Part shown: piece after piece, positions 6,601 to 25,068 of the stretch
How the letters are laid out: each line of letters begins with the position of its first letter
Position numbering within the stretch: position 1 is the stretch's first letter
Assembly: GCF_025979705.1 (NCBI RefSeq)
Contig: NZ_CP110136.1
Location: 2,852,001-2,916,000, forward strand
Length of the DNA: 64,000 nt
Direction of reading: 5' to 3'
Source of the DNA: Hymenobacter sp. YIM 151858-1
GTDB taxonomy: Bacteria > Bacteroidota > Bacteroidia > Cytophagales > Hymenobacteraceae
Made by a program: the position numbers and the translations under genes
The notes under the pieces: model-generated
The model's database searches: none
Told to the model about the DNA's origin: nothing
Seen by the model: the letters and a program-made list of their open reading frames with translations, nothing else

Positions 6601-8497
6601 TGCGGGCCCGCTGGATGGCGCGGTAGCCACGGACGGGATTACGGCCACGCGCACCAGCACCGGGGCCGCGGCCGCGGCCAACATCGGCCAGTACCCCATC
6701 AAGGCCACGCTCCTCGACCCCAACGGCAGACTGGGCAACTACACCGTAACCAACACCGACGGTACGCTGACCGTTGAAAAGGCCCCGCTAACGGTTGTGG
6801 CGGCCAACCAGCAGCGCACCTACGGCGACGCCAACCCGTCCCTGACGGGCCAGCTGACGGGCCTCCAGAACGCCGATGCCATTACGGCCAGCTACAGCAC
6901 CATCGCCACCGCGGCTACGGGCGTGGGCAACTACGTAATCGAGCCCGCCCTCAACGACCCCAACGGCAAGCTCGGCAACTACGCCGTTACCAAAACCAAC
7001 GGCACCCTTGCCATAAGCCCACGCCCCGTAACGGTAACGGCCGACAGCAAAACCATGGTGTATGGCGAGGCCGAACCGGCCCTGACGTATAAAATCACGG
7101 CGGGTAATCTGGTGAACAACGATGCCTTTACCGGAGCGCTGTCGCGCGCGGCGGGCACCAATGTGGGCACGTACGCCATCCTGCGCAACACCCTGGCCCT
7201 AGGTGCCAACTACACCCTCACGTACCTAGGGGCCAACCTCACCATTACGCCGCAGTTTGCCAACCCCGTGGCCGACACCTACTACACCGGCTCGAAGTTT
7301 TACTGGAGCACCGGGCCCACCAGCAACACCGTAACGCTGAACCTGGTAACCACCCTGAAGAACAACCCCAACTACGGCGGCGACATGCGCACGGCCCGCG
7401 CCTCGTTCTTCGTGCGCAAGGCCGATGGCTCGCTCACGCCCATCAACGGGGCGCAAAACCTGCCGGTGGGCCTGGTGAACCCCGATGACATGAGCACCGG
7501 CACGGCCGCGGCCAATGTGCAGTACTCCTTTAGCGGCGGGGCCGAGGTTATCAACATTGCCGTGAAAGTAACCGGCAACTACCGCAGCTACGACGACGGC
7601 ACCAAGGACGCCCCCGTAACGCTGGCCGTGCCCACGCCCGGCGGCCTTATTGCCGGCGGCGGCTCGTTTACCGAAACCGGCTCGGCCGGTTTTATCAAGG
7701 GCCGGGCCGATTTCGGTTTCTACGTGCAGTACAACAAGAGCCTGAAAAACCCGCAGGGCAGCGTTTCGGTAACGGTGCACAGCCCCTTCGACCGCACCGG
7801 TAAGGAAGACGGCAAAACGCACACCTACGTGCTGAAGAGCAACGCCATTTCGGTGCTGGCCGTGAACAACCCCAAAGCGCAGTTCAGCGGCAAGGCCAAC
7901 ATCAAGGAGATTGTGGACGGCGTGGAGCAAAGCATCGAAGGCAATTGCAACATGCAACTGGAGCTGATGGACGGTGTTGGCAACCCTGCAGTTCAGCCCG
8001 CTACGCAGGATTTGCTGGCCATTACCGTTTACCGCGCCAACGGCGGCGTGTGGTACTCGAGCCAGTGGGACGGCACCAAACCCGTGATGCGCATGGTGAA
8101 TGTGGCGGCCAAAGACCTGGTAACGGTGCATGGCGCGCCCAGCGGCACCGCTGCCGTAACGGCCACCACCCCAAGCAGCACGGCCAGCCTGGCCGTAACG
8201 GCCCCGGCTGCACCGGCTACCGCCAAACCGGCCGAGGCCACGGTGCTCGAGGTGTACCCCAACCCCATTGCCGACCAGGCCACGGTTCGCTTCCGGGCGG
8301 CTAAGGGCGGCAAAGCACAGGTGTACCTCTACAACCAGCTCGGGGCGCTGGTGGGCACGCTCTACAACGCCGAGGTGCAAGGCGGGCGAGAGTACCGGGT
8401 GCCGCTGCGGGCCACCGAGCTGCCCACGGGCACGTACTTCTGCCGCCTGATCGTCAACGGGCAGGTAGAAAACCGGCGCATCAGCATTGCCAAATAA
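602..8497 (+). CDS. Giant secreted MBG/YDG-repeat adhesin with type IX secretion tail
   Basis: This 2,631-residue protein is predicted to be exported by Sec and then attached to the cell surface or released through the type IX secretion system. Residues about 15-33 form a signal peptide ending in SAFAQ. The N-terminal 500 residues hold Ig-like/Big_2-type segments (for example TWSSSNTNVATV and the SYLWSNGATTQSI type). About residues 630-2200 are tandem beta-rich MBG and YDG repeats; typical units read VTADNKSKTYG and end YTVTN..GTLTV. The last 80 residues are a T9SS sorting domain starting EVYPNP and ending RRISIAK. There are few cysteines and many Thr/Ala/Gly residues. Such proteins usually act in adhesion or gliding; the ligand is unknown. 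The gene stands alone, closed by a terminator. Confidence 0.9.
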   Translation: MNTCLHPAKHRTWIMAYVPFLVLILASASAFAQTIETKAILPTTYCTGSAISVPFKITGTGFTTSSAFTVQVAPNINFNSSNTKDLGTVQFSNLGSGDLTAVVSIPTNLLLSGNYRVRVTSNISPAPNYTPSPTTITINPVPPAPAPITGTPSACVGGSTQLNTTTSGGTWSSSNTNVATVTTTGLVTGVAAGSASIIYTVSSSGCTNSTSVPVTITQPAPPTTTTALTYCQNAIAPALTASGSNLRWYATATATTSSTTAPTPSTASVGLTSYYVSQTVNGCESPRSKIDVTINAAPTATITASGPTSFCTGSSVTLSAPAGLSYLWSNGATTQSITASASGSYSVTVTNGSNCSATSAATVVTVTPAPSLSITAPTAVCAPGTVNLTAAAVTAGSTLPDGTVLSYWTNAAATTALNSPEAVAASGTYYIKATNGSCTDVKPVAVTVNPAPTTANAGPDQSLDGETATLAANAPQVGSGTWSVVSGEGGSFGSAASPTSTFSGVAGNTYKLRWSIGTGLCPASTDEVTIELKKVSTTTTVADASGVYGAGSVTLTATVQPNPGGGSVDFYLGGAKVGTSPVGNGGVATLAYNASQLNASGTTPYAISASFLGAGYFTASNSGPGQLTITPAPATISLSGLSATYDGSPKTASATTSPAGLALSISYDGNAAAPTEAGTYAVVATLNNANYTAANATGSLVIAPAGNSISFEALANQTYAPNATLPLAATASSGLPVSFEVTAGPASISGNTLTIAGAGTITVKATQAGNNNYAAATAVSRSFAVAKADQTIEFAALSAKTFGDADFELTAGSTALLPIGFAVTGPATLLPDGKTLRLTGAGSVTVTAEQPGNDNYNAAAAVSRTFAVDKATATLQLGTLAFGYDGSAKPVAATTTPGGLAGISITYDGSATAPTAAGSYAVVASLDNPNYQAISATGTLVISKAVATVTLDGLSQTYSATPKTVTASTSAAGSSFSYSFRKNNAVVAEPTAAGSYEVTATLDNPNYTGSATGTLVIAPAALAVTVADKSRAYAAPDPALTGTLTGVQGADNITASYSTTATATSNVGKYPITATLLDPQGKLSNYTVTNTPGELSVVPAAATISLADLGGHTYDGTTKAATVSTSPAGLPVTVTYNGAAPLPSAAGTYAVVATLNNANYSAADATGTLTIAPKALTVKANDKTRTYGNANPTLDGEFDGAIPNDGITASYGTAADAASNVGDYPIAATLNDPKGKLGNYAVSQQDGKLTVEARPVTVTADSKTKEYGDADPGLTYQITAGSLANGNSFSGSIARTPGETVGTYAIGRSTLSLGANYQLSFVEGSLAIGKAPLTVAANNASRAYGEANPAFGATYTGFKNNETATVLGGTLSLQTDATSTSPVGTYAIEASGLTSGNYAIGYQPGVLQVGRRSVAVKADAQTKVYGTSDPALTYTITAGSLVGTDAFAGALGRVAGEAAGSYAIEQRTLALSSNYTLTYTGADLAITKATLTVATDAQTKTYGQALPASAFTGSLNGVVPGDDITASRTSTGAAAGANAGSYDIVATLLDPDSKLGNYIVSNPAGTLTVSKAPLTVTANNATKAYGAAMPALGVSYAGLVNGELAPKTLPSVSTTATAGSPVKAGGYPITALGAADGNYDISYQTGTLTVTPVDLIVTADNKSKVYGQANPAFTASYSGLVNNDAPASLGGTLSFATQATAGSPVGAYDITPGGLISGNYTLEFKTGKLTIGKAQLSATADNKSRLYGEANPTFGGTLTGVQNSDAITASYTTTATPGTDAGTYSIVTSLNDPNQKLGNYEVNLTNGVLTIGRATLTVTADNKSKTYGDANPPLTVSYSGFVLNETASVLPTAPSASTTATQSSGAGNYPITAAGGASTNYAFKYVAGTLAVGKAELTVKANDASRTYGQANPAFTAHYSGYVNGDDAAAHTGAPQLTTPATSTSNVGPYDIVAAVGSLQSANYSFRFAPGTLTIGKATITVGNTSRAKTYGAALAATDFAGPLDGAVATDGITATRTSTGAAAAANIGQYPIKATLLDPNGRLGNYTVTNTDGTLTVEKAPLTVVAANQQRTYGDANPSLTGQLTGLQNADAITASYSTIATAATGVGNYVIEPALNDPNGKLGNYAVTKTNGTLAISPRPVTVTADSKTMVYGEAEPALTYKITAGNLVNNDAFTGALSRAAGTNVGTYAILRNTLALGANYTLTYLGANLTITPQFANPVADTYYTGSKFYWSTGPTSNTVTLNLVTTLKNNPNYGGDMRTARASFFVRKADGSLTPINGAQNLPVGLVNPDDMSTGTAAANVQYSFSGGAEVINIAVKVTGNYRSYDDGTKDAPVTLAVPTPGGLIAGGGSFTETGSAGFIKGRADFGFYVQYNKSLKNPQGSVSVTVHSPFDRTGKEDGKTHTYVLKSNAISVLAVNNPKAQFSGKANIKEIVDGVEQSIEGNCNMQLELMDGVGNPAVQPATQDLLAITVYRANGGVWYSSQWDGTKPVMRMVNVAAKDLVTVHGAPSGTAAVTATTPSSTASLAVTAPAAPATAKPAEATVLEVYPNPIADQATVRFRAAKGGKAQVYLYNQLGALVGTLYNAEVQGGREYRVPLRATELPTGTYFCRLIVNGQVENRRISIAK

Positions 8498-9177: not shown

Positions 9178-11235
9178 ATGACGCGTTCTTTTGCCTTCGG
9201 CAAGTGGCTGTGGGCTTTGCCGCTGCTGGGCCTGGCCCTGGGTAGCTGCAACCCCTCGGGCAGCGCCGGCACCGCCCAAACCGACATCCTGCAAAGCAGC
9301 CTCGACACCACCGTACACCCCGGCGACGACTTCTTCCGCTACGCCAACGGCGGCTGGCTGAAGCGCCACCCCATTCCGAACTCCGAAAGCTCGTGGGGCA
9401 TTGGCCGCGAGGTGCAAAACGAGGTGTACGCCCGCCTGCGCGCCCTGAGCGAGGAGGCCGCCAAGGCCAACGCCGCGCCGGACAGCAACCAGCAGAAGAT
9501 CGGCGACTTCTACGCCACCGGCATGGATTCGGCCCGCATCGAAAAGCAAGGCATTGCGCCGCTGAAGCCCGAGCTGGACCGCCTTGCCGCCATCCGGACG
9601 CCGCAAGAGGTAATGGCTGCCGTGGCCCACCTGCAGCCCCTAGGTGTTGGGGCGCTGATGAGCCCCTACGTGATGCAGGACGCCAAGAACAGCGAGAAAA
9701 TGGCGCTGTACCTGTACCAGGGCGGCCTGGGCCTGCCCAACCGCGACTACTACTTCAACCAGGACAAGCGCACGGCGGGTATCCGGCAGCAGTACGGCCA
9801 CCACGTGGCGCGCATGTTTCAGCTGCTGGGGCAGGATTCGGCTACGGCCCGCCTCAACAGCAACCGCGTGCTGCGGCTGGAAACGGCCTTGGCCAGGTCG
9901 TCGCGCAAGCTCGAAGACCTGCGCGACCCTTACGCCAACTACCACAAAATGGCCGTGGCCGACCTAGGCAAGCTGGCCGGCAACGTGGCGTGGCGCACGG
10001 TGCTCAACCAAATGGAGCTGCAACGGGCCGACACCGTGATTGTGGGCCAGCCCGAGTTTTACCGCACCGTGGGGCAGCTGCTGAAAACCGCTTCGGTGGA
10101 TGACTGGAAGGCCTACCTGCAGTGGCATTTGGTGCACACCTTCGCGCCCAACCTCAGCAGCAACTTCGATAACGAGAACTTCCGCTTTTACGGCACGGTG
10201 CTGCAGGGCAGCAAGCAGCAGCGCCCCCGCTGGAAACGCGTGCTCGACCGCGAAGAAGACGCCATGGGCGAAATGCTGGGCCAGCTCTTCGTGAAGGAGT
10301 ACTTCCGGCCCGAAACCAAGCAGCGCTACGAGAAGCTGGTGGCGAACGTAACGGCCTCGTTCCGCGAGCATATTCAGCAGCTCGACTGGATGAGCGACTC
10401 GACCAAGCAGAAAGCCTTGGTGAAGCTGAGCAAAATAACGCCGAAGGTGGGCTACCCCGATAAGTGGAAGGACTACTCCGCGCTGAAAGTCGACCGCAGC
10501 TCGTACGTGCAAAACGTGATGCGCGCCAACCAGTGGGCCTACCGCTACCGCGTCAACAAGCTGGGCCGCCCCGTCGACCGCACCGAGTGGGACATGACGC
10601 CCCAGACCTACAACGCCTACTACAACCCCTCGAACAACGAGATTGTGCTGCCCGCGGCCATCTTCGCCATTCCGGGCCTGAAGGATGAAGACGCCGACGA
10701 CGCCACCGTTTACGGCTACGCCGGCGCCAGCACCATTGGCCACGAGCTGACCCACGGCTTCGACGACGAAGGCAGCCAGTACGACGAGAAAGGCAACCTG
10801 CGCAACTGGTGGACGAAGCAAGACCGCGCCGAGTTTAAAAAGCGCGTCAACCAGATTGTGCGGCAGTTCAACGGCTACACCGTGCTCGACTCCTTGCGCA
10901 TCAACGGCAAGGCCACGGCCGGCGAAAACATTGCCGATTTGGGCGGCATCGTCATTGCCTACGACGCGTTCAAGAAAACCGAGCAATACAAGAAAGGCGA
11001 AAAGCTGGGCGGCCTCACGCCCACGCAGCGCTACTTTTTGGGCTACGCCCTAGGTTGGCAAAGCCACCAACGCGAGGAGGAGCTGGCCCAGCGCATCCTC
11101 ACCGATGTGCACTCGCCCGCGCAATACCGCGTGAACGGCCCCATGGCCGACGTGCCCGCCTTTTACGAGGCCTTTAAGGTGCAGCCCACGCACAAGCTGT
11201 TCCGGCCCGATAGCGCCCGCGTGCGCATTTGGTAG
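9178..11235 (+). CDS. M13 family zinc metallopeptidase, lipoprotein (PepO/neprilysin-like)
   Basis: This 685-residue protein is a predicted neprilysin-type (M13) endopeptidase that cleaves oligopeptides in the periplasm or at the outer membrane. The N-terminus is a lipoprotein signal with lipobox LGSC (Cys near residue 24). The M13 N-terminal domain begins around DTTVHPGDDFFRYANGGWL. The zinc site is seen as HELTH at residues 522-526, with the third ligand and support in GENIADLGG from residue 582. The end (FRPDSARVRIW) matches the family's usual C-terminal motif ending in W. Length is normal for the family. The gene is monocistronic, with a terminator 33 bases after the stop. Confidence 0.93.
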   Translation: MTRSFAFGKWLWALPLLGLALGSCNPSGSAGTAQTDILQSSLDTTVHPGDDFFRYANGGWLKRHPIPNSESSWGIGREVQNEVYARLRALSEEAAKANAAPDSNQQKIGDFYATGMDSARIEKQGIAPLKPELDRLAAIRTPQEVMAAVAHLQPLGVGALMSPYVMQDAKNSEKMALYLYQGGLGLPNRDYYFNQDKRTAGIRQQYGHHVARMFQLLGQDSATARLNSNRVLRLETALARSSRKLEDLRDPYANYHKMAVADLGKLAGNVAWRTVLNQMELQRADTVIVGQPEFYRTVGQLLKTASVDDWKAYLQWHLVHTFAPNLSSNFDNENFRFYGTVLQGSKQQRPRWKRVLDREEDAMGEMLGQLFVKEYFRPETKQRYEKLVANVTASFREHIQQLDWMSDSTKQKALVKLSKITPKVGYPDKWKDYSALKVDRSSYVQNVMRANQWAYRYRVNKLGRPVDRTEWDMTPQTYNAYYNPSNNEIVLPAAIFAIPGLKDEDADDATVYGYAGASTIGHELTHGFDDEGSQYDEKGNLRNWWTKQDRAEFKKRVNQIVRQFNGYTVLDSLRINGKATAGENIADLGGIVIAYDAFKKTEQYKKGEKLGGLTPTQRYFLGYALGWQSHQREEELAQRILTDVHSPAQYRVNGPMADVPAFYEAFKVQPTHKLFRPDSARVRIW

Positions 11236-12280: not shown

Positions 12281-12553
12281 TTAGTTGAGCCACATGGAGC
12301 ACACCATGCGGAAGCGGTGCGGGGCAAAGCCGTTGAAGTGCGGCGCCGCGGCACTAAAACCCAAAATGTAAATCATTTGGGCGCCGGTTTTGGCGTCTTG
12401 CACCAGGCGCACGGGGTACACAAAGCCCTCGATGGGCCAGTCGCCCTCGTGCTGCGGCGGCCGCCCGGAGGCATCGGTACAACGGGCGTAATCTAAAACT
12501 GGGCTCCGCTGAATAGCATCGGTCCAGGATAAGTTCGAGTGTGGGAACGACAT
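12281..12553 (-). CDS. Hypothetical protein, 90 residues
   Basis: I do not recognise this protein. It is a soluble 90-residue product beginning MSFPHSNLSWTDAIQ and ending HRFRMVCSMWLN. There is no signal peptide. The middle (WPIEGFVYPVRLVQDAKTG) reads like beta strands of a globular domain. The ATG is the only sensible start. It has no operon partner: the next gene on the same strand upstream is the short-peptide array about 320 bases away, and a divergent or convergent partner is absent. Confidence 0.5.
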   Translation of the reverse strand: MSFPHSNLSWTDAIQRSPVLDYARCTDASGRPPQHEGDWPIEGFVYPVRLVQDAKTGAQMIYILGFSAAAPHFNGFAPHRFRMVCSMWLN

Positions 12554-12872
12554 GCGGCAGGTGCGTTAGGGATGGAACCTTGGACGGTCGCTACAGGAGC
12601 AGCCGGCATTGTTGTCCGGGCTCCTCAGCAAAGCAGTTGGCGCGGTACTAGTTGCTTTGCCGCACTGGGCAGGCATGGAGTAATACGTAGGTAACCGGGA
12701 TTAAGGCGTGCCAAGGGCCATTAATCCGCACATTCGGCTGATGCCCAGAACCTAACAACCCCGCCAGCACGCAACCAGCCGCTAGTGCCAGCGGGTGCGG
12801 CACCCCACCAAACAGCTCGACCGGACTCCTGGGCAGAATCCGGTCGGGTTGTTTGGTGGGCGCGGGCACGGC
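12554..12872. other. Intergenic region with a hairpin and one doubtful frame
   Basis: Downstream of the short-peptide array on the minus strand, an 8-bp perfect stem (CGACCGGA at 12818-12825 with TCCGGTCG at 12839-12846) could end or process that transcript; it has no T-run. A GTG-started minus-strand frame (12648-12869, 73 residues, with a hydrophobic stretch LALAAGCVLAGLLG) begins three bases after the last peptide's stop. It could be a co-translated partner, but it overlaps the hairpin and looks like no known protein, so I do not call it a gene. Confidence 0.4.
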
Positions 12873-12956
12873 TCAGAGCGCGGTGCGCAGGTAGCGGCGG
12901 TTGGTACGGCGCCAGGGCCGAGCGGCCAAACCGGGGGTGCTAAGGATGGTTTTCAT
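12873..12956 (-). CDS. Cationic microprotein, 27 residues (third in array)
   Basis: A 27-residue peptide starts ATG at 12956 and stops TGA at 12873. It begins MKTILSTPGL and continues AARPWRRTNRRYLR, ending TAL. It has six Arg and one Lys, no acidic residue and no cysteine. Its C-terminal half is nearly identical to the neighbouring 26-residue peptide (both carry AARPWRR, then xxRRYLRxAL), which argues that both frames are real and arose by duplication. It is the last of three same-strand short genes downstream of a sigma54-type promoter at 13320-13337. The function is unknown; by composition it could be membrane-active. No close family is known to me. Confidence 0.65.
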   Translation of the reverse strand: MKTILSTPGLAARPWRRTNRRYLRTAL

Positions 12957-13019
12957 GGCTTTGGGTAGGGTTGGGAGTGGGCTGATGAACCGGTGCAGCC
13001 GCAGCGGCACCTAGGCTTT

Positions 13020-13100
13020 TTACAAGGCAGCGCGCAGGTAGCGGCGGGTGGCACGGCGCCAAGGGCGGGCAGCGGTACGGAGGGCTTGGGCAGTTTTCAT
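13020..13100 (-). CDS. Cationic microprotein, 26 residues (second in array)
   Basis: ATG at 13100 to TAA at 13020 gives a 26-residue peptide with seven Arg and one Lys, no acidic residue and no cysteine. It starts MKTAQALR and contains AARPWRR and RRYLRAAL. Without gaps, its first 16 residues match the 44-residue first peptide at M1, T3, A6-L7-R8, P13 and R15-R16. It matches the 27-residue peptide over the C-terminal half. It lies 49 bases after the first peptide and 63 bases before the third, so all three are probably one transcript. It may be exported, may act on membranes, or may be a signal; nothing in the sequence decides this. Confidence 0.68.
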   Translation of the reverse strand: MKTAQALRTAARPWRRATRRYLRAAL

Positions 13101-13149
13101 AGCGGTGTAAGAGTTGAGTTGTGTAGAAAGGAAGGGGCGGCGGCAAAAA

Positions 13150-13284
13150 TCAGCGGCCGCAAAGTGCCGGTGTGCGCAGCACGCCTTGGCTTACCCGAAC
13201 GGGTGCACCGCCCATGGCGCGCAGGGCCGGCAGTGTGCGGCGGCTAGGTTGGCTGGTGCTGCGGAGGGCGGGCTGCGTGTTCAT
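13150..13284 (-). CDS. Basic microprotein, 44 residues (first in array)
   Basis: ATG at 13284 to TGA at 13150 encodes 44 residues with seven Arg, no acidic residue and one Cys (residue 42). It opens MNTQPALRS and shares gapless positions with the 26-residue peptide. Residues 25-26 are a Gly-Gly pair followed by APVRVSQG, but no C39 peptidase is encoded nearby, so a double-glycine leader is only a possibility. The start codon lies 36 bases from the promoter edge (13320), exactly the distance seen for the fusion-protein gene and its matching promoter (25051 to 25015). That spacing supports this short frame as the first gene of the transcript. Confidence 0.55.
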   Translation of the reverse strand: MNTQPALRSTSQPSRRTLPALRAMGGAPVRVSQGVLRTPALCGR

Positions 13285-13319
13285 TTTCGTGCGGGTTTCA
13301 AGCGTTTCTGAATAGTAAT

Positions 13320-13337
13320 AGCCAATGCCCGTGCCAG
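13320..13337 (-). promoter_or_regulatory. Sigma54-type promoter of the microprotein array
   Basis: Read on the minus strand this is CTGGCACGGGCATTGGCT, a -24/-12 element of the form TGGCAC-N5-TTGG. It differs from the textbook TGGCAC-N5-TTGC in the last base. The same TTGGCT ending occurs in the two sister promoters at 20226 and 25051. It should start transcription around 13309 toward the three microproteins. Confidence 0.72.
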
Positions 13338-13401
13338 TTTTATAATCTATTGATTAACAGGTATTTGCATTGATATACACATCTTATCAGGCCTGAAAAG
13401 G

Positions 13402-13425
13402 TGTCCGATATCGAACACGTGTCCG
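13402..13425 (-). promoter_or_regulatory. Activator site (enhancer dyad) for the microprotein promoter
   Basis: TGTCCG-ATAT-CGAACA (13402-13417) is a dyad, followed by a third half-site TGTCCG at 13420-13425. Its first base lies 65 positions from the promoter edge at 13337, and the spacer is AT-rich. The likely binder is the Fis-type helix-turn-helix of the response regulator at 15066-16460. Confidence 0.7.
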
Positions 13426-13633: not shown

Positions 13634-15004
13634 TCAGGCCGGGGTAGCAGGCACCGGGCTCTTGGCTGTACCCGTAACAGCCTGCGCAGGTGCGGAGGTT
13701 GTGCCGGCCAGGCTAATGGCAAACGCCGTGCGGCCGTTGGGCTGGGTAGCCAGGCTGAACGCAAAGCCGTGGTGCAGCAGAATGTCGCGAATCATCGTCA
13801 GGCCGATGCCTTGGCCGTCGCGCTTGGTGCTGAAGAACGGCGTGAACAAGTGCGGCTGTACTTCGGCCGGAATGCCCGGCCCGTCGTTCTCGATAACCAC
13901 GGCGGGCGGCTGGGCGGTGGTGCGCACCCACAGGTTGCCGTCGTGGTCGATGGCTTCGAGGGCGTTTTTGCAGATGTTCAGCAGCGCCTGCTCCATTTGC
14001 TGCGCATCCAGCGCCACAAACAGCGGGCCGGGCGCCAGCTCCCAGTGCCATTTGATGCTGCGCTTCTCGCTTTGCACCTGCAGCAGCCGGCAAGTAGCCT
14101 TCAGCAGCTCGTGCACATCGGTGGGGCGCGGTGTGGGCGCCGGCAGCCGCACCAGGTTGGCAAAGCTGGCAATGAAGTTGGCCAGGTGCGTGTTGCGGTT
14201 CACGGACACATCCAGGGCTTCTTCGAAATCGGGGCGGTCGTCTTCGGCCAGCTGCGGGGCGTAGTAGCGGAACGACTGCAAAATGGAGTTGACGGCGCCG
14301 ATGGAGTTGTTAATCTCGTGCGACATCATCCGGATCAGCTTCTCGTAGGCCTGCTTTTCCTGCCTGATGAGCTCCTGCGTCAGCTCTTCCAGCAAAATAA
14401 AATAGCGCGTAAAGCCCCGGTCGAGGAAGCGCGAGGTGCTGGCCCGGTACGTTTGCATGCCCGATAGCTGCACCACCTGCGGCTGCCCGGCCTCCAGCGC
14501 ACCTAGGGCCCGGCCCCACTCGCCGGGCAGCTCGGCGGGGCGCTTGCCCAGCAGCTCGGCCGCGGGCTGCTGCAGGCAGCGCTCGGCCGCCGGGTTCAGC
14601 GACTCAATATTCCCATCGAAGCTCAGCAGTAAAATCCCTGCCGGCGAGGCCGTAATCAGGCGCTCCAGCAGGTAGCTTTTCTCGTGCTGGGTGATGCGCT
14701 CCTGCCGCAGCTCGTCAATCATGGTGTTGTAGGTATCAATCAGCTGGTCCATTTCGGTCTGGCCCACGGGCAGAAACTTCATGGTGAAGTCGCGCGAGCG
14801 AATGGCCTGGGTGCCGGCGGCAATCAAATTCAGGGGCCGCACAAAGCCGCGGTACAGCTGAATGCTGAGCATGGCCGTAACGAGCAGCAGCGCTTCCGTC
14901 GTCAGAAACAGCCACATGTTGGTACCGCGAAACTGAAACGCCAGCACCGCAATGGCCACATGAATCAGGCCAACGAACAGAATGTACTTGGTGCGTAAGG
15001 TCAT
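13634..15004 (-). CDS. Membrane sensor histidine kinase (NtrY/NtrB-like)
   Basis: This 456-residue sensor kinase has two N-terminal membrane helices (about residues 8-24 and 30-50) with almost no periplasmic loop between them. A HAMP-like linker follows (FVRPLNLIAAG), then a PAS domain (about 110-215, PAGILLLSFDGNIESLNPAA). The HisKA motif MMSHEINNS places the phosphoacceptor at His229. The ATPase domain carries the N-box NICKNALEAI and the G-boxes ENDGPGIP and GQGIGLTMI. The tiny outer loop suggests it senses a membrane or cytoplasmic cue. It lies 61 bases downstream of its regulator gene and should phosphorylate it. Confidence 0.92.
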   Translation of the reverse strand: MTLRTKYILFVGLIHVAIAVLAFQFRGTNMWLFLTTEALLLVTAMLSIQLYRGFVRPLNLIAAGTQAIRSRDFTMKFLPVGQTEMDQLIDTYNTMIDELRQERITQHEKSYLLERLITASPAGILLLSFDGNIESLNPAAERCLQQPAAELLGKRPAELPGEWGRALGALEAGQPQVVQLSGMQTYRASTSRFLDRGFTRYFILLEELTQELIRQEKQAYEKLIRMMSHEINNSIGAVNSILQSFRYYAPQLAEDDRPDFEEALDVSVNRNTHLANFIASFANLVRLPAPTPRPTDVHELLKATCRLLQVQSEKRSIKWHWELAPGPLFVALDAQQMEQALLNICKNALEAIDHDGNLWVRTTAQPPAVVIENDGPGIPAEVQPHLFTPFFSTKRDGQGIGLTMIRDILLHHGFAFSLATQPNGRTAFAISLAGTTSAPAQAVTGTAKSPVPATPA

Positions 15005-15065: not shown

Positions 15066-16460
15066 CTACGGCTGCGCGGCGTCGTACGGGATGTTGAACT
15101 TCTCGAGGCGGCGGTACAGCGCGCCCCGGCTGAGCCCCAGGGCCTTGGCCACGCGCGAGAGGTTGCCGGCGTAAAAATCCACGGTTTTGCGAATCATCTG
15201 GGCCTCCATCTCGTCGAGCGTCATCAGGCCCACTTCGGGCAGGGCGCCGGGCTCCACGGCTTTGGTGCTCACGCGCTGCGCCTGGGCCTGAAACTCCTCG
15301 GGGCCGAGCTCATCCTTGCCGCTTACCAGCACGGCGCGCTCCACCAGGTTTTTCAGCTCCCTGATGTTGCCCGGCAGCTGCTGCTCGCGCAGCCAGTGCA
15401 GGGCGCGGGTGTTCACCTTCAGGGCCGGGCGGTTGTAGGCCGTGCGCAGGTTGCTTACGAAGTGCTGCGCCAGCAGCGGAATGTCGTCGGGCCGCTCGCG
15501 CAGGGCGGGCAGGCGTACCGTAATCAGGTTGATGCGGTAAAACAAATCTTCGCGGAAGCGGCCCTCGCGCACTTCCTGGGCCAGGTCGCGGTTGGTGGCG
15601 CAAATTACCCGAATGTCCAGGGAGCGGCTGCGCGAGTCGCCGAGTACCTCGTAGGTGCGGTCTTGCAGCACGCGCAGCAGCTTCACCTGCGAGCCCATGT
15701 CCAGCTCGCCTATCTCGTCGAGGAAAATGGTGCCGCCGTTGGCCATTTCGAAGCGGCCCTGGCGGTCGGCTTTGGCATCGGTGAAGGCGCCGCGGCGGTG
15801 GCCGAACATCTCGCTCTCGAACAACGACGCCGAAATGCCGCCTAGGTTCACTTTCACAAAAGGCTTGTTGCGGCGCTGCGAGTTCAGGTGAATGGCCTCG
15901 GCAATCAGCTCCTTGCCCGTGCCCGACTCGCCCTCGATCAGCACCGAGGCATCGGTGGCGGCTACCTGCCCCACGCTGCGCAACACCTGCAGCAGCTGCG
16001 CATCCTGCCCCACAATGTTCCGGAAGTTGTACTGCCGATCGAGCTGCCGGCGCGTGGGGCTCACCTCGTCGTCGGGGTGGGCGGCGTGGCTTTCGGCCAG
16101 GCTGATGACGGTGCGGATGGTTTGCAGCAGCGAGTCGTTGTTCCAGGGCTTGGTTACGAACTCGGCCGCACCGGCCTTCATGCCTTCCACGGCCAGCGAA
16201 ATAGAGCCCCACCCCGTGATGAGGATAACCGGCACCTGCGGGGCAATTTCCTTTACCTGACCCAGGAGGCGCAGGCCGTCCTGGCCGGTGGTGGCCATGG
16301 AGTAGTTCATATCCATAAGCACCAGCTGCGGCGGGGTTTCGCGCACCACGCGCATCGCTTCTTCGGGGGTGCCCACGGCCTTGGTGGCGTAGCCGGCCTG
16401 CTTAAGCAGCAGCCCCAGGGAGGTGCGCACGGCTATGTCGTCGTCGACGATGAGTATCAT
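15066..16460 (-). CDS. Sigma54-dependent response regulator (NtrC family)
   Basis: This 464-residue activator starts MILIVDDD with receiver phosphoacceptor Asp50 (VLMDMNYS). The AAA+ sigma54-interaction domain carries Walker A GESGTGKE (177-184), the sigma54-contact loop GAFTDA (224-229) in place of the usual GAFTGA, and Walker B TIFLDEI (244-250). The arginine-rich sensor segment is RFREDLFYRIN. The C-terminal Fis-type helix-turn-helix is NLSRVAKALGLSRGALYRRL. ATG 16460 fits the receiver start; codons upstream are not conserved. It is probably the protein that binds the three TGTCCG dyads near 13.4, 20.3 and 25.1 kb. Being encoded in the operon controlled by the 20.3 kb site, it is likely autoregulated. 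Confidence 0.94.
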   Translation of the reverse strand: MILIVDDDIAVRTSLGLLLKQAGYATKAVGTPEEAMRVVRETPPQLVLMDMNYSMATTGQDGLRLLGQVKEIAPQVPVILITGWGSISLAVEGMKAGAAEFVTKPWNNDSLLQTIRTVISLAESHAAHPDDEVSPTRRQLDRQYNFRNIVGQDAQLLQVLRSVGQVAATDASVLIEGESGTGKELIAEAIHLNSQRRNKPFVKVNLGGISASLFESEMFGHRRGAFTDAKADRQGRFEMANGGTIFLDEIGELDMGSQVKLLRVLQDRTYEVLGDSRSRSLDIRVICATNRDLAQEVREGRFREDLFYRINLITVRLPALRERPDDIPLLAQHFVSNLRTAYNRPALKVNTRALHWLREQQLPGNIRELKNLVERAVLVSGKDELGPEEFQAQAQRVSTKAVEPGALPEVGLMTLDEMEAQMIRKTVDFYAGNLSRVAKALGLSRGALYRRLEKFNIPYDAAQP

Positions 16461-16578: not shown

Positions 16579-17781
16579 CTACTCTTCGCGCAGGGCTACT
16601 GCGGGCTGAATGCCTGCGGCCAGGCGGCTGGGTTGCCAGGCGCAGATAGCCGTGAGCAGGTAGATGATGCCCGTGGCAATTAGCATGGCCAGCAGGTACA
16701 CGCGTGCTGGCACATCAAAAGCGCCTAGCAGCGGAAACTGAACCGCCAGCACAAGCCCCAGCACCACCCCCAGCGAGGTAAGCGCCAGCATTTCGGCCAG
16801 AAACTGCGAGCTGATAGCCGGGCCCGTGGCCCCCAGCGCACGGCGCAGGCCTACCTCGGCGCGGCGCTGGCTGATGTTGTACCACAGCACCCCAAACAGA
16901 CCTAGGGCCACGTTGATGATCAGAAACAGGCCCACCACCGACAAGGCCGCAATGGGCGCCACGGTTACCTTCATTTTATCAATGCGGTCGGCCTCCAGGG
17001 TGTATACCTCGGTGCTCCATTTGCGCGTAACGCCGGCCACGGTTTTCACAATTTTCTGCTGCAGCTCGGCGCGCTGGCCCGGGGCCACGCGCACCAGCAC
17101 GGCGGCGCCCTCCCACTGCGTGGTATCGTGGGGCACCAGGCGCATCCACATGCTGGGGCTCACGTCGCTAAACTCGCTGTGCACGCGCACGTCTTCTACC
17201 ACGCCCACCACCTGAAAGCGCTCATTGGCCGAATCGCCGAACCGGACATCGTGGCGCAGCACCTGGCCCAGCGCACCTTGGGCGGTGCCAAACAGCTTCT
17301 CGCTCATGTTGCGCGTAATCACAACCGGGCGGTGCGTGGCGGCATCGTCGGCGCTCCGGAACCAGCGGCCCGCGAGCAGCTGCAGGCCCATGGTGGCCGC
17401 GTACCGGTCGTCGGCGTCGTAGCGGTCCACGTCTTTGGCTTTGGCGTTGTTGGCGGCCAGTATGTCGCTGTTCATCGTGATAAACCGGAAGGGCGTGTTG
17501 GGGCTGGTCAGGGTCAGCTCCTGCACGCCGGGTAGCGCCCGCACCTGGCGCAGCACGTCGTCGAGCACGGGGCGGGGCATTTTTTCGCCCTGGCCGGCCG
17601 CAATGTTGAGGCGCCACACCTGCTCGTGGCGGAAGCCCGGCGGCAGCAGGTAGTTGCGCCCTACCGTGACGAGCACCACGCCCACGGCGAAGAGCACAAT
17701 AAACGAAAGCAGAATTTCGCTGAGCAGCAGCACGTTGGTGCGCTTGCGGTTCCAGATCAGGCGAAGCAGATGACGAAACAT
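16579..17781 (-). CDS. ABC exporter permease, FtsX/MacB type (second)
   Basis: This 400-residue permease has the MacB layout: an N-terminal membrane helix (about residues 20-38), a large periplasmic domain (about 40-270), then three C-terminal helices. The third-quarter motif YNISQRRAEVGLRRALGA is the FtsX-family signature. It should pair with the other permease (17913-19172) and use the ATPase at 19377. ATG 17781 (MFRHLLRLIWNRKR) fits the family; codons upstream are not conserved. MacB-type pumps move substrates from the periplasm outward through a fusion protein and a TolC channel, which fits the second operon at 22205-25015. Confidence 0.9.
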   Translation of the reverse strand: MFRHLLRLIWNRKRTNVLLLSEILLSFIVLFAVGVVLVTVGRNYLLPPGFRHEQVWRLNIAAGQGEKMPRPVLDDVLRQVRALPGVQELTLTSPNTPFRFITMNSDILAANNAKAKDVDRYDADDRYAATMGLQLLAGRWFRSADDAATHRPVVITRNMSEKLFGTAQGALGQVLRHDVRFGDSANERFQVVGVVEDVRVHSEFSDVSPSMWMRLVPHDTTQWEGAAVLVRVAPGQRAELQQKIVKTVAGVTRKWSTEVYTLEADRIDKMKVTVAPIAALSVVGLFLIINVALGLFGVLWYNISQRRAEVGLRRALGATGPAISSQFLAEMLALTSLGVVLGLVLAVQFPLLGAFDVPARVYLLAMLIATGIIYLLTAICAWQPSRLAAGIQPAVALREE

Positions 17782-17912
17782 GGCAGGGGTGATGGGGTAA
17801 CAGGTAACACGTGACAGGTTACAGGCAACAGGTGGGCAGCAGGCACTGGGCAAGCACCGGAAACCGGCTTGGCTTCTTCCTCAGGCCTCATTCTTTATTA
17901 TTCCTTCTTCCA

Positions 17913-19172
17913 TCACCTAGGGCCGCCGGCGCTGCCGCGCAGGGCATCTACCGGGTTCAGGCGCGACATTTTCCAGGCCGGGTACACGCCGCTCATCAGC
18001 CCGAATATCACCGTCAGACCTAGGCCCGTGCCGAAGGCCCGCCAGCTCAGCCCAAAGTGCGAGTGGGCAATAAACTGCGACTCGTTGAGCAAGTGCAGCC
18101 CCCCCGCCGCGAGGCCCAGCCCAATCAGGCCGCCCAGGGCCGTCAGCACCAGGTTTTCCGTCAGAAACTGGCCCACCAGCACCGAGCGCGAAGCCCCGAA
18201 GGCCTTGCGCACCCCGATTTCGCCGGCGCGCTCCATAATGCGCGTCACGTTCAGGTTCACGAGGTTGAGGGCGGGCAGCAGCATAAAGAGCAGGGCCAGC
18301 ACGCCGCACACCGTCAGAAACAGGCCCATGCCGTCGTTGTCAGAGTCCTGGTTGCTGGTGAGCTGCCGCACTATGCCGGCCAGGGCCGGATCGGCGTGCG
18401 CAAACATTTTGTTGAAGCGGGCGGGGTCGGGCAGCGGCACGCGCCGCATCACCTGCTGAAACTCGGCGCGCATGGCCGGCACGGCCTTGCGCGTGGGCGC
18501 CAGCAAAATGGCGAAGTACGAGCCGTCGTAGCGGTTGTCTTCGATGCTGCTGGCGTTGAGGGTGTAGGGCACCCACACATCGGCGCTGGAGTACAGCCGG
18601 ATGGCCGGCACATCGGGCACCACCCCCGTTACGCGGTAGCGGTGCGGCCCGATTTCGAGCGTGCGCCCGGCGGCGCCTTGCTCCGTACCGAAAAACGAGC
18701 GGGCCGTGCTCCGGCTGATGACGCACACGCGGGCTTTCTGGTCGATTTCGGCGGCCGTGTAGGTGCGCCCGTCAACGAAGTCGAAATCCATCACGCGCCA
18801 GAAATTGTAGTCGGTGTGGCGCACATCCAGCGTGAGGGTTTGGTTGCCGGCAAAGGCCGTGGCGCTGGTGCCCACCGAGGTAAAGCCCACCAGCTCGGGC
18901 GTTTTCATGGGCCGCACGTAGGTGTTGATGAAGTGGGCGCTGACGGGCGTGTTGTTCGAGCCGCCGTCCTTGAAACGCAGGCTCAGCAGGTTCACGAACA
19001 ACATGCGGTCCATGCGCTTTTCGGGCTTGTGCGAACCGTTGAAGTGGTCGACGGCGGCCACCAGCACCAGCATCACCATCAGCGTAAAGCTGATGCCGAA
19101 CAAGCTGATGAAGGTGAAGAACTTGCGGCGCAAGAGCACCTTCCAGGCAATTTTCAGGTAGCTAAGCAGCAT
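17913..19172 (-). CDS. ABC exporter permease, FtsX/MacB type (first)
   Basis: This 419-residue MacB-like permease starts MLLSYLKIAWKVLLRRK, has a first membrane helix around residues 20-42, a large periplasmic domain, and three C-terminal helices. The FtsX signature is MERAGEIGVRKAFGA. Its start overlaps the end of the preceding 64-residue gene by 11 bases, which suggests translational coupling. About 130 bases separate it from the next permease; that gap holds short CAGGT-rich direct repeats (17800-17860). It probably forms a heterodimer with the second permease. Confidence 0.9.
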   Translation of the reverse strand: MLLSYLKIAWKVLLRRKFFTFISLFGISFTLMVMLVLVAAVDHFNGSHKPEKRMDRMLFVNLLSLRFKDGGSNNTPVSAHFINTYVRPMKTPELVGFTSVGTSATAFAGNQTLTLDVRHTDYNFWRVMDFDFVDGRTYTAAEIDQKARVCVISRSTARSFFGTEQGAAGRTLEIGPHRYRVTGVVPDVPAIRLYSSADVWVPYTLNASSIEDNRYDGSYFAILLAPTRKAVPAMRAEFQQVMRRVPLPDPARFNKMFAHADPALAGIVRQLTSNQDSDNDGMGLFLTVCGVLALLFMLLPALNLVNLNVTRIMERAGEIGVRKAFGASRSVLVGQFLTENLVLTALGGLIGLGLAAGGLHLLNESQFIAHSHFGLSWRAFGTGLGLTVIFGLMSGVYPAWKMSRLNPVDALRGSAGGPR

Positions 19173-19356
19173 AAATCGTGGGGGCAGATGTGGGTTGGGG
19201 GGTAACCTGAAGCGTGGGCATGGCTGCCGGGCGCGCCGCCGGCAGCACCGACCTAGGCGCCGCCTGCGGAGCCGTGAGGTCGTAGAGCCCGGCTCCGGCC
19301 ATCAGCAGCAGCAAGGCGGCCAGTACCAGGGCGGCGGCTTGTAATACCCGTTTCAT
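19162..19356 (-). CDS. Small membrane peptide inside the exporter operon, 64 residues
   Basis: I do not recognise this protein. It has one N-terminal hydrophobic helix (VLQAAALVLAALLLLMAGAG) after MKR and then a Pro/Ala/Thr-rich tail of about 35 residues without charges typical of a folded domain. It lies 20 bases after the ATPase gene and overlaps the permease start by 11 bases, so it is well placed as a translated operon member. It could be an accessory subunit of the pump, or a frame used mainly for coupling translation. The composition also fits a signal peptide followed by a short periplasmic tail. Confidence 0.6.
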   Translation of the reverse strand: MKRVLQAAALVLAALLLLMAGAGLYDLTAPQAAPRSVLPAARPAAMPTLQVTPQPTSAPTIYAA

Positions 19357-19376: not shown

Positions 19377-20117
<741 letters not shown>

Positions 20118-20225
20118 AGGGGCAGTCGGGGTTTGTTTTCGGAGGGTTGAGCCGGTGTTGAGAGGAAGAAAGCCTCCCCGCGCTGTCCGGTTTTGTGCAA
20201 GGGCGGAGCGGGTGCCACCAACATA

Positions 20226-20243
20226 AGCCAAGGCGCGTGCCAA
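20226..20243 (-). promoter_or_regulatory. Sigma54-type promoter of the ABC exporter/two-component operon
   Basis: On the minus strand: TTGGCACGCGCCTTGGCT, matching the sister elements at 13320 and 25051 in the TGGCA and TTGGCT blocks and in overall length. It leaves a leader of roughly 95 bases before ATG 20117. Confidence 0.75.
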
Positions 20244-22204: not shown

Positions 22205-23725
22205 CTAATTGCTGGCGGCCAGCAAGGGCTGCTGCCGCTCAAAGTCGTACAACGTAAGGGTACGCAGCTGATAATACGCTACCCAGGAGGCGCGCAGCGC
22301 GGCAATGTAGGCGCGCTTGGCGCGGTCTTTTTCGCTTTGGGCAATGTTGAGGTCGGTAAGCGAAATGCGGCCTACCTGGTAGGTGGCGCGGGCAATGTGG
22401 TAGCGGCGCTGGGCCAGCGAATCGGCGCGGGCGGCCAGGGCCAGCTGCTGCTCCAGGGCCCCCAGCTGCGCCGCCTGCGACAGCACCGATTGCTCGAAGG
22501 TCATTTGCTCCTGCTCCACGGTTACTTTGGCCTGCTGGCGGGCCAGCTCGGCGGTTTTCACGGTGGCGCGCGTCTTGCCCCAATCCACAATGGGCATCGA
22601 GAAACCCAGGCGTACCTGCTGCTGGTCGTTGGGGTTGAGGTAGCTGCTGCGAAACTGCTCGCCGCTGCTCGCCAGGCCAAACGAGGCCGTAAGGCTGGCC
22701 TGAAAACCGGTGGTACCCTTGGCCTGCGCCACGTTGCGGTCGGCCTCGAGCAGGCGGCGCTGAAACATCAGCGCCTCGCGCCGGTACTGCCGCGCCTGGG
22801 TTAAGGCGGCTTCGGGCGCTACGTCGAGCTTGGGGGCGGCCGCGGGCACGTCGAGCGTACCGGCGGCGTCTACCGTCAGGCCGGTGTAGCCTTTCAGCTG
22901 CACGGCGGCATTTTGGGCATCCACGTTGGCCTGCACTTCGGCTTGCTGGGCGTTCAGCAGGTTCAGCTCGAGCAGCAGCAAATCGTTTTCCGACAACCGA
23001 CCCAGGCGGTGCCGCTCGCGCCCCATGCGCAGCATGTCTTCGCTTACCTGGCGGTTTTGGCGCGCAATGCCGGCGTTTACCTGCTGCAGCAGCACATCGA
23101 AGTACAGCTCGGTGGCGCGGCGCGCAATGGTTTCGCGCTCCTCCACGTACTGCCGCTCGGCCTCCTGGTAGCGCAGCGGCTCGATGCGCTTGTTCCAGCC
23201 CAGGGCATTGAAACCACCTAGGGGCTGCACCAGACCCACGGCCACGGGGTTGCTGTTGTAGAGGCGCTGGTTGCCCTCGAAGTTATCGAAGCGCTGCAGC
23301 GTGGAGCCCACCGTAATGCGCCCGCCCGTAAGGCCGATGCCCTGGCTGAGCGTGGTGGCCAGGTACGAGTTGTTGATGCGCACGTAGCGAAAATCGGTGG
23401 TGCCATCGGGCTGCGTTACGGGCGTAATGGTGCGGCTGTAGTTGGGCAGCACGCCCTCCAGGGCCAACTGCGGCTTGTAGTCGGCCCGAAACGAGCGGTA
23501 CTGCCACAGGCTGGTTTCGCGGTTGGTTACGGCCTGCTTCGCCACCGCCGCCCGACCTAGGGTAAGCTCGATTACCTGCGGCAGCGTGAGGGCCGGCTGG
23601 GCCGGCGCCGTAGGTTGCGCCCAGGCAATCGACATAGTAAGCAGCACCAGCACCACGGTGGCGCCCAGCATCAGCAACCACAGCCGCAACACCTCCAGCA
23701 GAAAGGGTAGATTCAGTCGGTTCAT
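22205..23725 (-). CDS. TolC-like outer-membrane efflux channel
   Basis: This 506-residue outer-membrane factor has an N-terminal signal (hydrophobic stretch LWLLMLGATVVLVLLTMSIA, then AWAQP). Two OEP repeats of long coiled-coil helices follow, for example LTLPQVIELTLGRAA at the start of the first and ATYQVGRISLTDLNIAQSEKDRA in the second. It should form the trimeric exit duct for the fusion protein encoded 39 bases upstream. The two genes make one leftward transcript from the promoter at 25051, so it is probably co-induced with the ABC pump at 16.6-20.1 kb, which lacks its own channel gene. Confidence 0.92.
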   Translation of the reverse strand: MNRLNLPFLLEVLRLWLLMLGATVVLVLLTMSIAWAQPTAPAQPALTLPQVIELTLGRAAVAKQAVTNRETSLWQYRSFRADYKPQLALEGVLPNYSRTITPVTQPDGTTDFRYVRINNSYLATTLSQGIGLTGGRITVGSTLQRFDNFEGNQRLYNSNPVAVGLVQPLGGFNALGWNKRIEPLRYQEAERQYVEERETIARRATELYFDVLLQQVNAGIARQNRQVSEDMLRMGRERHRLGRLSENDLLLLELNLLNAQQAEVQANVDAQNAAVQLKGYTGLTVDAAGTLDVPAAAPKLDVAPEAALTQARQYRREALMFQRRLLEADRNVAQAKGTTGFQASLTASFGLASSGEQFRSSYLNPNDQQQVRLGFSMPIVDWGKTRATVKTAELARQQAKVTVEQEQMTFEQSVLSQAAQLGALEQQLALAARADSLAQRRYHIARATYQVGRISLTDLNIAQSEKDRAKRAYIAALRASWVAYYQLRTLTLYDFERQQPLLAASN

Positions 23726-23764: not shown

Positions 23765-25015
23765 TTAGCGTTTGATGCTGAGCTCGGGCGCCTGTTCGTA
23801 GTCTTTGGTTTCGCTGATGATCAGCTCCTCGCCGGAGCGCACGCCGCTGATGATCTGCACGTAGTCGAAGTTGGCGTCGCCGAAGCGCGCGGTGCGGCGC
23901 ACGGCCTTGCCATCTTCCAGCACAAACACCGGCTGCTCGCGCCCGCCCTGGTAAAAGGGGCCGTTTTTCACGCGCAGCACGCCGCGGTGGGCCCGCGTTA
24001 CCACGTACACATCGGCCCGCAGATTGGCGCGCAGCGCGGGGTGGTTGTTCTGCTCGAGTTGGGCATAGAACGTTACCACGCCTTTGTCGGCAGCGGGGCT
24101 GATGGAGCTGATGGTGCCGCGCAAATTGGTGCCGCCGCCCAGGCGCACAATCACGGGGTCGCCCACGTGCAGCGAGTCGGCGTAGCTATCGGCCACGGAG
24201 CCCCGCACCCGAAACGAGCTCAGGTCGGCCACGCGGGCCAGCACCTGGCCCTGGTTTACCGTCGAGCCAATGTCTTCGCTTACCCAGGTAAGCACGCCGG
24301 CTTGGTCGGAGCTGATGTTGGCCTGGCGCAGCTTATGCGCCAACTCGGTAATGTTGCGGTCCTGGATCTGCATGGTGTAGCCCAGGCCGCGCTCGTCGGC
24401 ATCGTTGGAGCGGCGCTGGTTGCTGATCTGGCGGCGCACTTTCTGCAGCTCCAGCTCGGCAATCTTCAGGTTCAGCTCGGCCTGCCGCACGCTCTCCTGA
24501 GTGCCCGAGCCAATGCCGAGCAGGTGTTGCTCGTCGCGCAGGGCCGATTGCAGGCTGCGCACTTTCTCTTGTTGCACTTTCTCCTGCGCCTCCAGGTCGT
24601 TGAGGCTGCGCTCGAGGGAGAGCTGCAGCAGGGTGCTTTTGTTGCGGTTTTGCAGCTGCTCGTCCTGCAGTTTAGCCAGCGCGCTGCTGGTTAGCTCCTT
24701 GTCGAGCTCCAGAATGGGCTGCCCGGGCTGCACCTTGGCGCCGGCCGTAAGCAGCACCCGCCGAATGCTCGACTGGATGGGGCTGGTGATGACGGCCTCA
24801 TGCGCCGGAATGATGAGGCCAGTGGCCGTGATGGAAGCCTCTACGTCGCCGGTTTCTACGGCCGCCGTCAGGATTTCCTCCTGCCTGATGCTGGGCTTCA
24901 GCACACCGCGGAAGGCCCACAGGCCCACGGCCGCCACCGCCAAGGCGGCAACTACCAGCAACAGGCGCCGGGTGCGGCGTTTGGCATACGTGGCGGGCGA
25001 AATAGCTCTGTCCAT
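23765..25015 (-). CDS. Membrane-fusion protein (HlyD/MacA-like)
   Basis: This 416-residue periplasmic adaptor has one N-terminal membrane helix (LLLVVAALAVAAVGLWAF). The lipoyl half-motif is ASITATGLIIPAHEA, then a long coiled-coil hairpin (about residues 115-225). The second lipoyl half holds GVLTWVSEDIGSTVNQGQVLARV, and a beta-barrel and membrane-proximal domain follow. It should join the MacB-type permeases to TolC. The start ATG 25015 lies 36 bases from the promoter edge. It is first in the operon with the TolC-like gene. Confidence 0.92.
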   Translation of the reverse strand: MDRAISPATYAKRRTRRLLLVVAALAVAAVGLWAFRGVLKPSIRQEEILTAAVETGDVEASITATGLIIPAHEAVITSPIQSSIRRVLLTAGAKVQPGQPILELDKELTSSALAKLQDEQLQNRNKSTLLQLSLERSLNDLEAQEKVQQEKVRSLQSALRDEQHLLGIGSGTQESVRQAELNLKIAELELQKVRRQISNQRRSNDADERGLGYTMQIQDRNITELAHKLRQANISSDQAGVLTWVSEDIGSTVNQGQVLARVADLSSFRVRGSVADSYADSLHVGDPVIVRLGGGTNLRGTISSISPAADKGVVTFYAQLEQNNHPALRANLRADVYVVTRAHRGVLRVKNGPFYQGGREQPVFVLEDGKAVRRTARFGDANFDYVQIISGVRSGEELIISETKDYEQAPELSIKR

Positions 25016-25050
25016 TTTCGTTCGGATTGGGGTCGGATTCGGGTAGTAGT

Positions 25051-25068
25051 AGCCAAGCCCAATGCCAA
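25051..25068 (-). promoter_or_regulatory. Sigma54-type promoter of the fusion-protein/TolC operon
   Basis: On the minus strand: TTGGCATTGGGCTTGGCT. It keeps the TGGCA and TTGGCT blocks and the 18-base length of the elements at 13320 and 20226. Its distance to the start codon (36 bases) equals that of the microprotein array. Confidence 0.75.

Follow-up and report, generated by a model that had tools for sequence, protein, structure and literature searches.

Proteins as small as those considered here usually escape annotation. Among the closest described systems, AcrZ is a small protein co-regulated with the pump AcrAB-TolC, and Bce-type modules combine an intramembrane-sensing kinase with an ABC transporter, the layout of such kinases being two transmembrane helices joined by few residues; we know of no counterpart in these modules of the peptide operon described below.

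The present locus lies in a window of 64,000 nucleotides (the whole stretch of DNA that was analyzed) from Hymenobacter sp. YIM 151858-1. Like the Bce-type modules, it has a minimal-loop kinase beside FtsX-type permeases; unlike them, it features an NtrC-type regulator with RpoN, and MacB-like permeases with HlyD and TolC partners. The darobactin exporter offers another comparison, DarD being the best NCBIfam model for the ATPase of this locus; however, the ATPase reaches 245.8 bits against the DarD cut-off of 375, and no modifying enzyme is found among the scanned proteins. As in the case of AcrZ, proteins of about 50 residues or fewer are tied to a TolC-dependent pump, but AcrZ is a transmembrane protein (PMC7267776, in the sections consulted), whereas the peptides here, a set of three, are strongly basic and show no hydrophobic stretch. 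Predicted sigma54 control is enriched for COG0577 FtsX-type permeases in Bacteroidia and other classes, a link termed previously unrecognised (PMC12316311, in the sections consulted); those sections mention neither a peptide operon nor a fixed upstream geometry, and HlyD occurs 0 times in the text. No description of the peptides was found in the literature searched, which takes in few subscription journals. What we describe is an operon of small proteins that is linked to the regulon of an exporter, and whose sequences found no counterpart in Pfam or NCBIfam under the cut-offs applied (0 Pfam families at E up to 10 and 0 NCBIfam families at E up to 1 for the three peptides, the HMMER filters dropping most weak matches in both scans).

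Organization of the locus and composition of the peptides

The following features of the window are referred to below, together with the genome of the window (G000), two close relatives (G004 and G005, the latter being Solirubrum puertoriconensis, locus L071) and a fourth species (G007, Hymenobacter sp. 15J16-1T3B, locus L118).

12795..12869, minus strand: strong hairpin after peptide 3 (-50.2 kcal/mol, z -6.7; no T tract)
12873..12956, minus strand: peptide 3, 27 aa, MKTILSTPGLAARPWRRTNRRYLRTAL, paralogue of peptide 2 (frame and relatives)
13020..13100, minus strand: peptide 2, 26 aa, MKTAQALRTAARPWRRATRRYLRAAL (frame and relatives)
13150..13284, minus strand: peptide 1, 44 aa, MNTQPALRSTSQPSRRTLPALRAMGGAPVRVSQGVLRTPALCGR (whole in both G004 and G005; G007 has a relative of 39 aa)
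13285..13319, minus strand: 35-nt 5' leader ahead of the peptide 1 start, resembling that of HlyD (position-by-position comparison, three genomes)
13320..13336, minus strand: RpoN-type promoter box of the peptide operon, TGGCACGGGCATTGGCT (similar box in G004, G005 and G007)
13402..13425, minus strand: composite site CGGACACG-TGTTCGATATCGGACA upstream of the box, where the NtrC-type regulator presumably binds (65 bp lie between the end of its palindrome, 13402-13417, and the box)
13634..15004, minus strand: histidine kinase with two hydrophobic helices, a very short loop, HAMP, PAS and HATPase_c (domain scan, relatives)
15066..16460, minus strand: NtrC-type response regulator with receiver, sigma54 activation and Fis-type HTH domains (start taken at MILIVDDD)
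16579..17781, minus strand: MacB_PCD/FtsX permease (start taken at MFRHLL; scanned as 16579-17790)
17913..19172, minus strand: another MacB_PCD/FtsX permease (domain scan)
19377..20117, minus strand: ABC ATPase (start taken at MEPTLT, as in relatives; own promoter box at 20242(-))
22205..23725, minus strand: TolC-type outer membrane efflux protein (domain scan)
23765..25015, minus strand: HlyD-type membrane fusion protein (own promoter box at 25067(-))

On the minus strand the kinase is followed by peptides 1, 2 and 3 in this order, and preceded by the NtrC-type regulator, the two FtsX permeases and the ABC ATPase; the TolC-type and HlyD-type genes lie farther upstream, beyond a divergent OmpA/DUF937 gene. 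All the parts of a MacAB-TolC-like tripartite exporter are present (HlyD-type adaptor, efflux protein, ABC ATPase and MacB_PCD/FtsX permease), though the permeases are encoded by two genes and the ATPase by a gene of its own, in contrast to the one-piece MacB. The kinase has the Bce-like layout of two transmembrane helices with a very short extracytoplasmic linker, only a few residues separating the two hydrophobic stretches in the N-termini of 10 relatives (helices judged by eye). Past the peptide hairpin, the plus strand encodes a glycosyltransferase and an M13-family peptidase (9178-11235). Two other frames of the window may be mentioned: a 2631-aa protein (602-8497, plus strand) with apparently many similar repeats, as judged by eye, and a 64-aa frame between the ATPase and the first permease (19162-19356, minus strand) with one hydrophobic helix and a Pro/Thr-rich tail, for which the only match is a sub-threshold one to a disordered repeat.

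The three short frames, of 44, 26 and 27 residues on one strand, are present as the first-pass annotation had described them, with 7, 7 and 6 arginines in peptides 1, 2 and 3 and neither Asp nor Glu in this genome. As peptide 1 of G004 has one acidic residue, the absence of acids is not strictly conserved. Moreover, among 203 ATG frames of the window with lengths of 24-50 aa, 27 combine at least six arginines with a lack of acidic residues, 24 of them being frames other than these peptides. Arginine richness without acidic residues is therefore common in this window, and composition alone does not prove the frames to be genes.

Conservation of the three frames

All three peptides keep their start, stop, length and order in G004 and G005, and no stop or frameshift, the outcome named beforehand as telling against the frames, was encountered on inspection of these relatives. 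In a three-way alignment the frames are ungapped and 70-89% identical, as against 43-65% in the two spacers, the second of which has gap columns. Six ATG frames of at least 18 aa occur in the region, but only for the three peptides do both start and stop align in G004 as well as in G005; an antisense frame of 33 aa is preserved in G005 and not in G004. The substitutions follow codons, as the test proposed at the outset was meant to reveal: pooled pN/pS is 0.42, 0.44 and 0.48 for the three genome pairs, which share branches and hence are not independent, with 1, 0 and 2 of 1000 column shuffles as low. For peptide 1, which aligns three ways without gaps, the ratio is 0.49-0.60 per pair. The kinase gives about 0.14-0.17 for the same pairs, pointing to a weaker constraint on the peptides. 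In G007, a shorter relative of peptide 1 (39 aa) and a single copy of the peptide 2/3 type, which at 27 aa has the length of peptide 3, lie directly behind the kinase.

These observations bear on the notion that the peptides are ordinary GC-rich frames without meaning, an artefact of a high-GC intergenic region. The abundance of comparable arginine-rich, acid-free frames in the window is what speaks for it; however, intact orthologues in other species and codon-aware substitution make it very improbable. We likewise regard it as improbable, though less so, that the transcript is a regulatory RNA in which the frames are incidental or secondary. The short unit, the strong 3' hairpin and the inducible-looking promoter would suit such an RNA, but the conservation tracks the frames and not the spacers, substitutions are codon-aware, and a comparison with Rfam gave nothing above the gathering scores, its nine weak hits lying on or overlapping the two hairpins. 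The first of these, after peptide 3, is the probable end of the transcript, although a simple terminator scan did not flag it. By eye in the alignment, G004 has a similar inverted repeat after peptide 3 and G005 one of different sequence nearby; this apparent replacement hints at selection for structure. The second, also recognized by eye, lies between the kinase and the peptide promoter.

The proposal that the three peptides form one duplicated family holds for two of them. Peptides 2 and 3 have in common the AARPWRR and RRYLRxAL motifs pointed out earlier, and they are identical at 13-14 of 25 positions (14 in this genome), a count that none of 20000 shuffles attained in any of three genomes. 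Peptides 1 and 2 share 7 of 25 positions beyond M1 in this genome, a weak likeness reached by 258, 1546 and 372 of 20000 shuffles in G000, G004 and G005, respectively, and the profile comparison gave no match. Hence, only peptides 2 and 3 are clear paralogues, and the presumed three-member family is reduced to a pair plus one.

A promoter element shared with the exporter

The three minus-strand promoters upstream of the peptides, HlyD and the ATPase share a box, TGGCA-N6-TTGGCT, and an upstream palindrome, TGTYC-N6-GGACA. In its strict form this pattern has exactly three sites in the genome, all inside the window and belonging to these three units, and none for a reversed-pattern control; with one mismatch allowed there are still three, but the control yields five. 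Across eight genomes of the genus, a search that left the gap free from 50 to 78 bp recovered 22 sites, as against four for the reversed pattern; each of the 22 spans 87 bp, which fixes the gap at 65 bp throughout. The other 19 precede HlyD (7), the ATPase (6), the G004 peptides (1), MarR-like genes (4, the identity of one being confirmed by Pfam) and a 463-aa protein (1) that looks like a piece of a TonB-dependent receptor. The peptide site of G005 has one mismatch (TGGT), and the palindrome of L118 ends in GAACA, placing it outside the search pattern. Among 67 named loci with kinase relatives, the gap measures 65 bp at 44 of 49 sites, 66 at two and 51-53 at three. At least one site is found in 34 of the 51 Hymenobacter-type loci, the other 17 having none that fits the pattern, with some of them ending at contig edges. 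Between palindrome and box, the three peptide loci agree at no more than 46-48% of the 65 bp and yet align without a gap, so that it is the spacing rather than the sequence that is kept there; the palindrome itself is identical at 15-16 of 16 positions in the three pairs. In the Hymenobacter loci examined, this near-constant spacing and the 35-nt HlyD leader offer a handle for defining the regulon in other genomes.

The same arrangement of palindrome, 65 bp and box at three strict sites strongly supports the suggested co-regulation of the peptide operon with a tripartite exporter, and also that with its two-component pair. Combining it with the conservation described above, we consider it highly probable that the three frames are maintained as genes and that their promoter carries the control element of the exporter.

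Several features bear on the designation of this promoter as a sigma54 promoter. The -24 part of the box, TGGCAC, fits the RpoN consensus TGGCAC-N5-7-TTGCT (PMC12316311, in the sections consulted), the genome encodes RpoN (PF04552, 195.2 bits against a cut-off of 22.8), and there are an activator gene and a conserved palindrome. The -12 part, however, is TTGGCT instead of TTGCT, which leaves RpoN use likely but unproven. In a scan that allowed TTGC or TTGG, all sites with a correctly placed GGACA had TTGG; the other scans required TTGG. A scan for sigma70-type promoters gave no match on the peptide strand and one on the plus strand (13319-13346).

Two side observations concern sites elsewhere. 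Those with gaps of 51-53 bp belong to L115 (Rufibacter), L124 (Chitinophaga) and L128 (a Chitinophagales MAG), where the palindrome is about one helical turn closer to the box. A remote MarR-like regulator gene carries the palindrome-65 bp-box element in five of the eight genus genomes (L050, L051, L052, L067 and L169, the last with one mismatch); none was found for such a gene in the genome of the window.

As had been noticed at the outset, the first start codon of the peptide operon is as far from the promoter edge as that of HlyD: 35 nt separate the end of the box, which starts at 13336(-), from the ATG. This distance recurs in 16 of 17 HlyD cases and for peptide 1 in G000, G004 and G005, and is 34 in G007. 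The peptide 1 and HlyD leaders are identical at 21, 19 and 23 of 35 positions in G000, G004 and G005 (2, 27 and 0 of 10000 shuffles as high), and in the same register the ATPase leader matches that of peptide 1 at 16, 13 and 13 of 35 (49, 522 and 370 of 10000). As the latter is also above chance, some of the resemblance, for instance the CGAAA/CAAAA end, may reflect a constraint shared across the regulon. Beyond the ATG the coding parts of the peptide and HlyD do not match (21, 21 and 22 of 57; 1313-1828 of 10000 shuffles as high). A copied HlyD promoter would fit these figures, though they do not show it. Some 35 nt past the box, each of the three leaders closes with a stretch of the type GCACRAAA/GAACGAAA (20191-20225, 24981-25050 and 13285-13319, all minus strand), the ATPase leader having this type of end although no start codon occurs there, and it is possible that they have a downstream element in common. 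In H. psychrotolerans (L080, about 4425 (+), and L152) a frame of 39 aa that starts with MNT and overlaps the ATPase start lies at +35 from the ATPase promoter; its GAAAATGAACAC context is the same as that of peptide 1, but it is not the peptide.

The leader comparison is the basis of a further alternative, by which three young frames, whose products are tolerated or weakly useful, came under a promoter that was either copied from HlyD, leader included, or shaped by the same constraint. The likeness of the leaders in three genomes, the dissimilarity past the ATG and the narrow distribution documented below are what such an origin would leave. On the other hand, the frames are under purifying selection with conserved start, stop and length, residues are kept in G007, and the above-chance likeness of the ATPase leader could mean a shared constraint instead of a copy. 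We regard this alternative as quite unlikely.

Distribution and possible functions of the microproteins

With either the peptide 1 or the peptide 2/3 profile, full-length matches occur in 4 of 204 family genomes, namely G000, G004, G005 and G007. The 2/3 profile matches 101 of the 204 at E up to 0.05, the four full-length matches having best E values of at most 9.7e-14. The next matches, in G088 (4.4e-5), G108 (5.1e-5) and G065 (7.4e-5), are partial. At 18 family loci that were translated, the matches are short pieces of other or longer frames (the frame at L016, whose locus is cut, has 259 aa) and were rejected as homologues. At E up to 0.002 the peptide 1 profile matches 5 of 204; the fifth, in G108 (7e-4, 25 of 44 positions), is taken as chance. 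A sample of 390 genomes from the order contains 3 with matches at E up to 2e-4 (G000, G004 and a partial match in G065), 2 of the 390 at full length, G005 and G007 being absent among the matches listed. Peptide 1 has no match in 72,556 plasmid records.

The kinase, for its part, is present in all eight genus genomes and in 51 named Hymenobacter-type loci, and the profiles find the peptides in two of 67 named loci, L071 and L118 (a search of the loci only and not of whole genomes). With kinase and exporter widespread in the absence of the peptides, the operon is an accessory and cannot be the general cargo or signal of the system. It is rare, patchy and dispensable, having been either lost repeatedly or moved. 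A single gain is not favored by a kinase tree of 17 chosen rows, on which the peptide label needs two changes that are forced by well supported branches. From the kinase to the DUF1345 gene there are 39-142 nt in eight peptide-less loci, as against 670 nt, holding the peptides, in L118; taken with the two label changes, this would suit both a gain with clean losses and an older transfer. A recent transfer of the cassette into G007 is not supported, because G000 and G007 differ at the synonymous sites of peptide 3 (pS 0.50, about 23 sites) by no less than at those of the kinase (0.37).

By the reading that we favor, the three microproteins, as members of a small regulon of the MacAB-TolC-like exporter, would, with a probability of roughly 0.35, tune the exporter or the kinase from the inner membrane face. 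The kinase, being almost without a periplasmic domain, would sense envelope stress within the membrane, perhaps via the exporter; that it could do so through either is suggested by its helices being joined by only a few residues. It would phosphorylate the NtrC-type regulator, which would bind the CGAACA-N3-TGTCC-N6-GGACA site 65 bp upstream and start RpoN polymerase at the three promoters, such that HlyD-TolC, the ATPase-permeases-regulator-kinase unit (a positive loop) and the microproteins would be made together. The peptides have neither a visible signal sequence nor a hydrophobic or membrane-spanning run, as judged by eye, and would therefore most likely stay inside, where the conserved basic half, RPWRRxxRR[YW]LRxAL, may lie on the inner membrane face. 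Five sequences of the 2/3 type have a net charge of +7 to +8, and the helical moment of their C-terminal 14 residues is 0.65-0.78 against shuffle means of 0.35-0.39 (160-405 of 5000 shuffles as high), a modest amphipathic signal in that 3-8% of shuffles are as high; for peptide 1 over its whole length it is 0.40 against 0.16 (20 of 5000 as high). This modest signal counts against the modulator reading, as do the deviating -12 element and the single-sequence AlphaFold2 model of peptide 1, which has a mean pLDDT of 57 and no confident fold; the patchy presence and the weaker constraint than on the kinase would equally suit a dispensable exported peptide or young genes.

Close behind, and not decisively separated from it, stands the tentative possibility that leaderless, cationic, Arg/Trp-containing peptides are released via the co-induced exporter and act on competitors or signal to the kinase; they would form a dispensable cassette that joined a detoxification exporter already in place. 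Co-regulation with the HlyD-TolC-FtsX exporter, patchiness on the kinase tree, the weaker constraint and the PWRR-type composition would all agree with this, and the best NCBIfam models of the ATPase are DarD, of darobactin export, and LolD, both of them below cut-off and the former by the bits given above. The M13-family peptidase gene nearby would also fit, but a gene with a similar start and equal length occurs in the peptide-less locus L093 as well. Kinase and exporter are, moreover, widespread without peptides, there is no visible signal sequence, and neither a conserved double-glycine leader nor, in Pfam scans of the transporter genes, a C39 peptidase domain was found. The double glycine at residues 25-26 of peptide 1 is present in G000 and G005 and absent in G004 and G007, and with two of four sequences it was rejected as a leader.

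A more speculative history, which we hold to be rather doubtful, would have a copied HlyD promoter and leader capture new frames, with orphan microproteins thereby wired into an envelope-stress circuit and sent out by, or acting on, the co-switched pump, and with later losses of the cassette, or its movement from lineage to lineage, at a single fixed place behind the kinase. The locus may also show how new small genes join a regulon. The rigid shared control element ties the microproteins to one exporter and one sensor, which makes their role testable with few mutants.

Beyond the peptide hairpin lies a further frame of 90 aa, MSFPHSNLSW... (12281-12553, minus strand), which has no match in Pfam or NCBIfam; G005 retains it at the full 90 aa, and to judge from the alignment it is conserved in G004, too.
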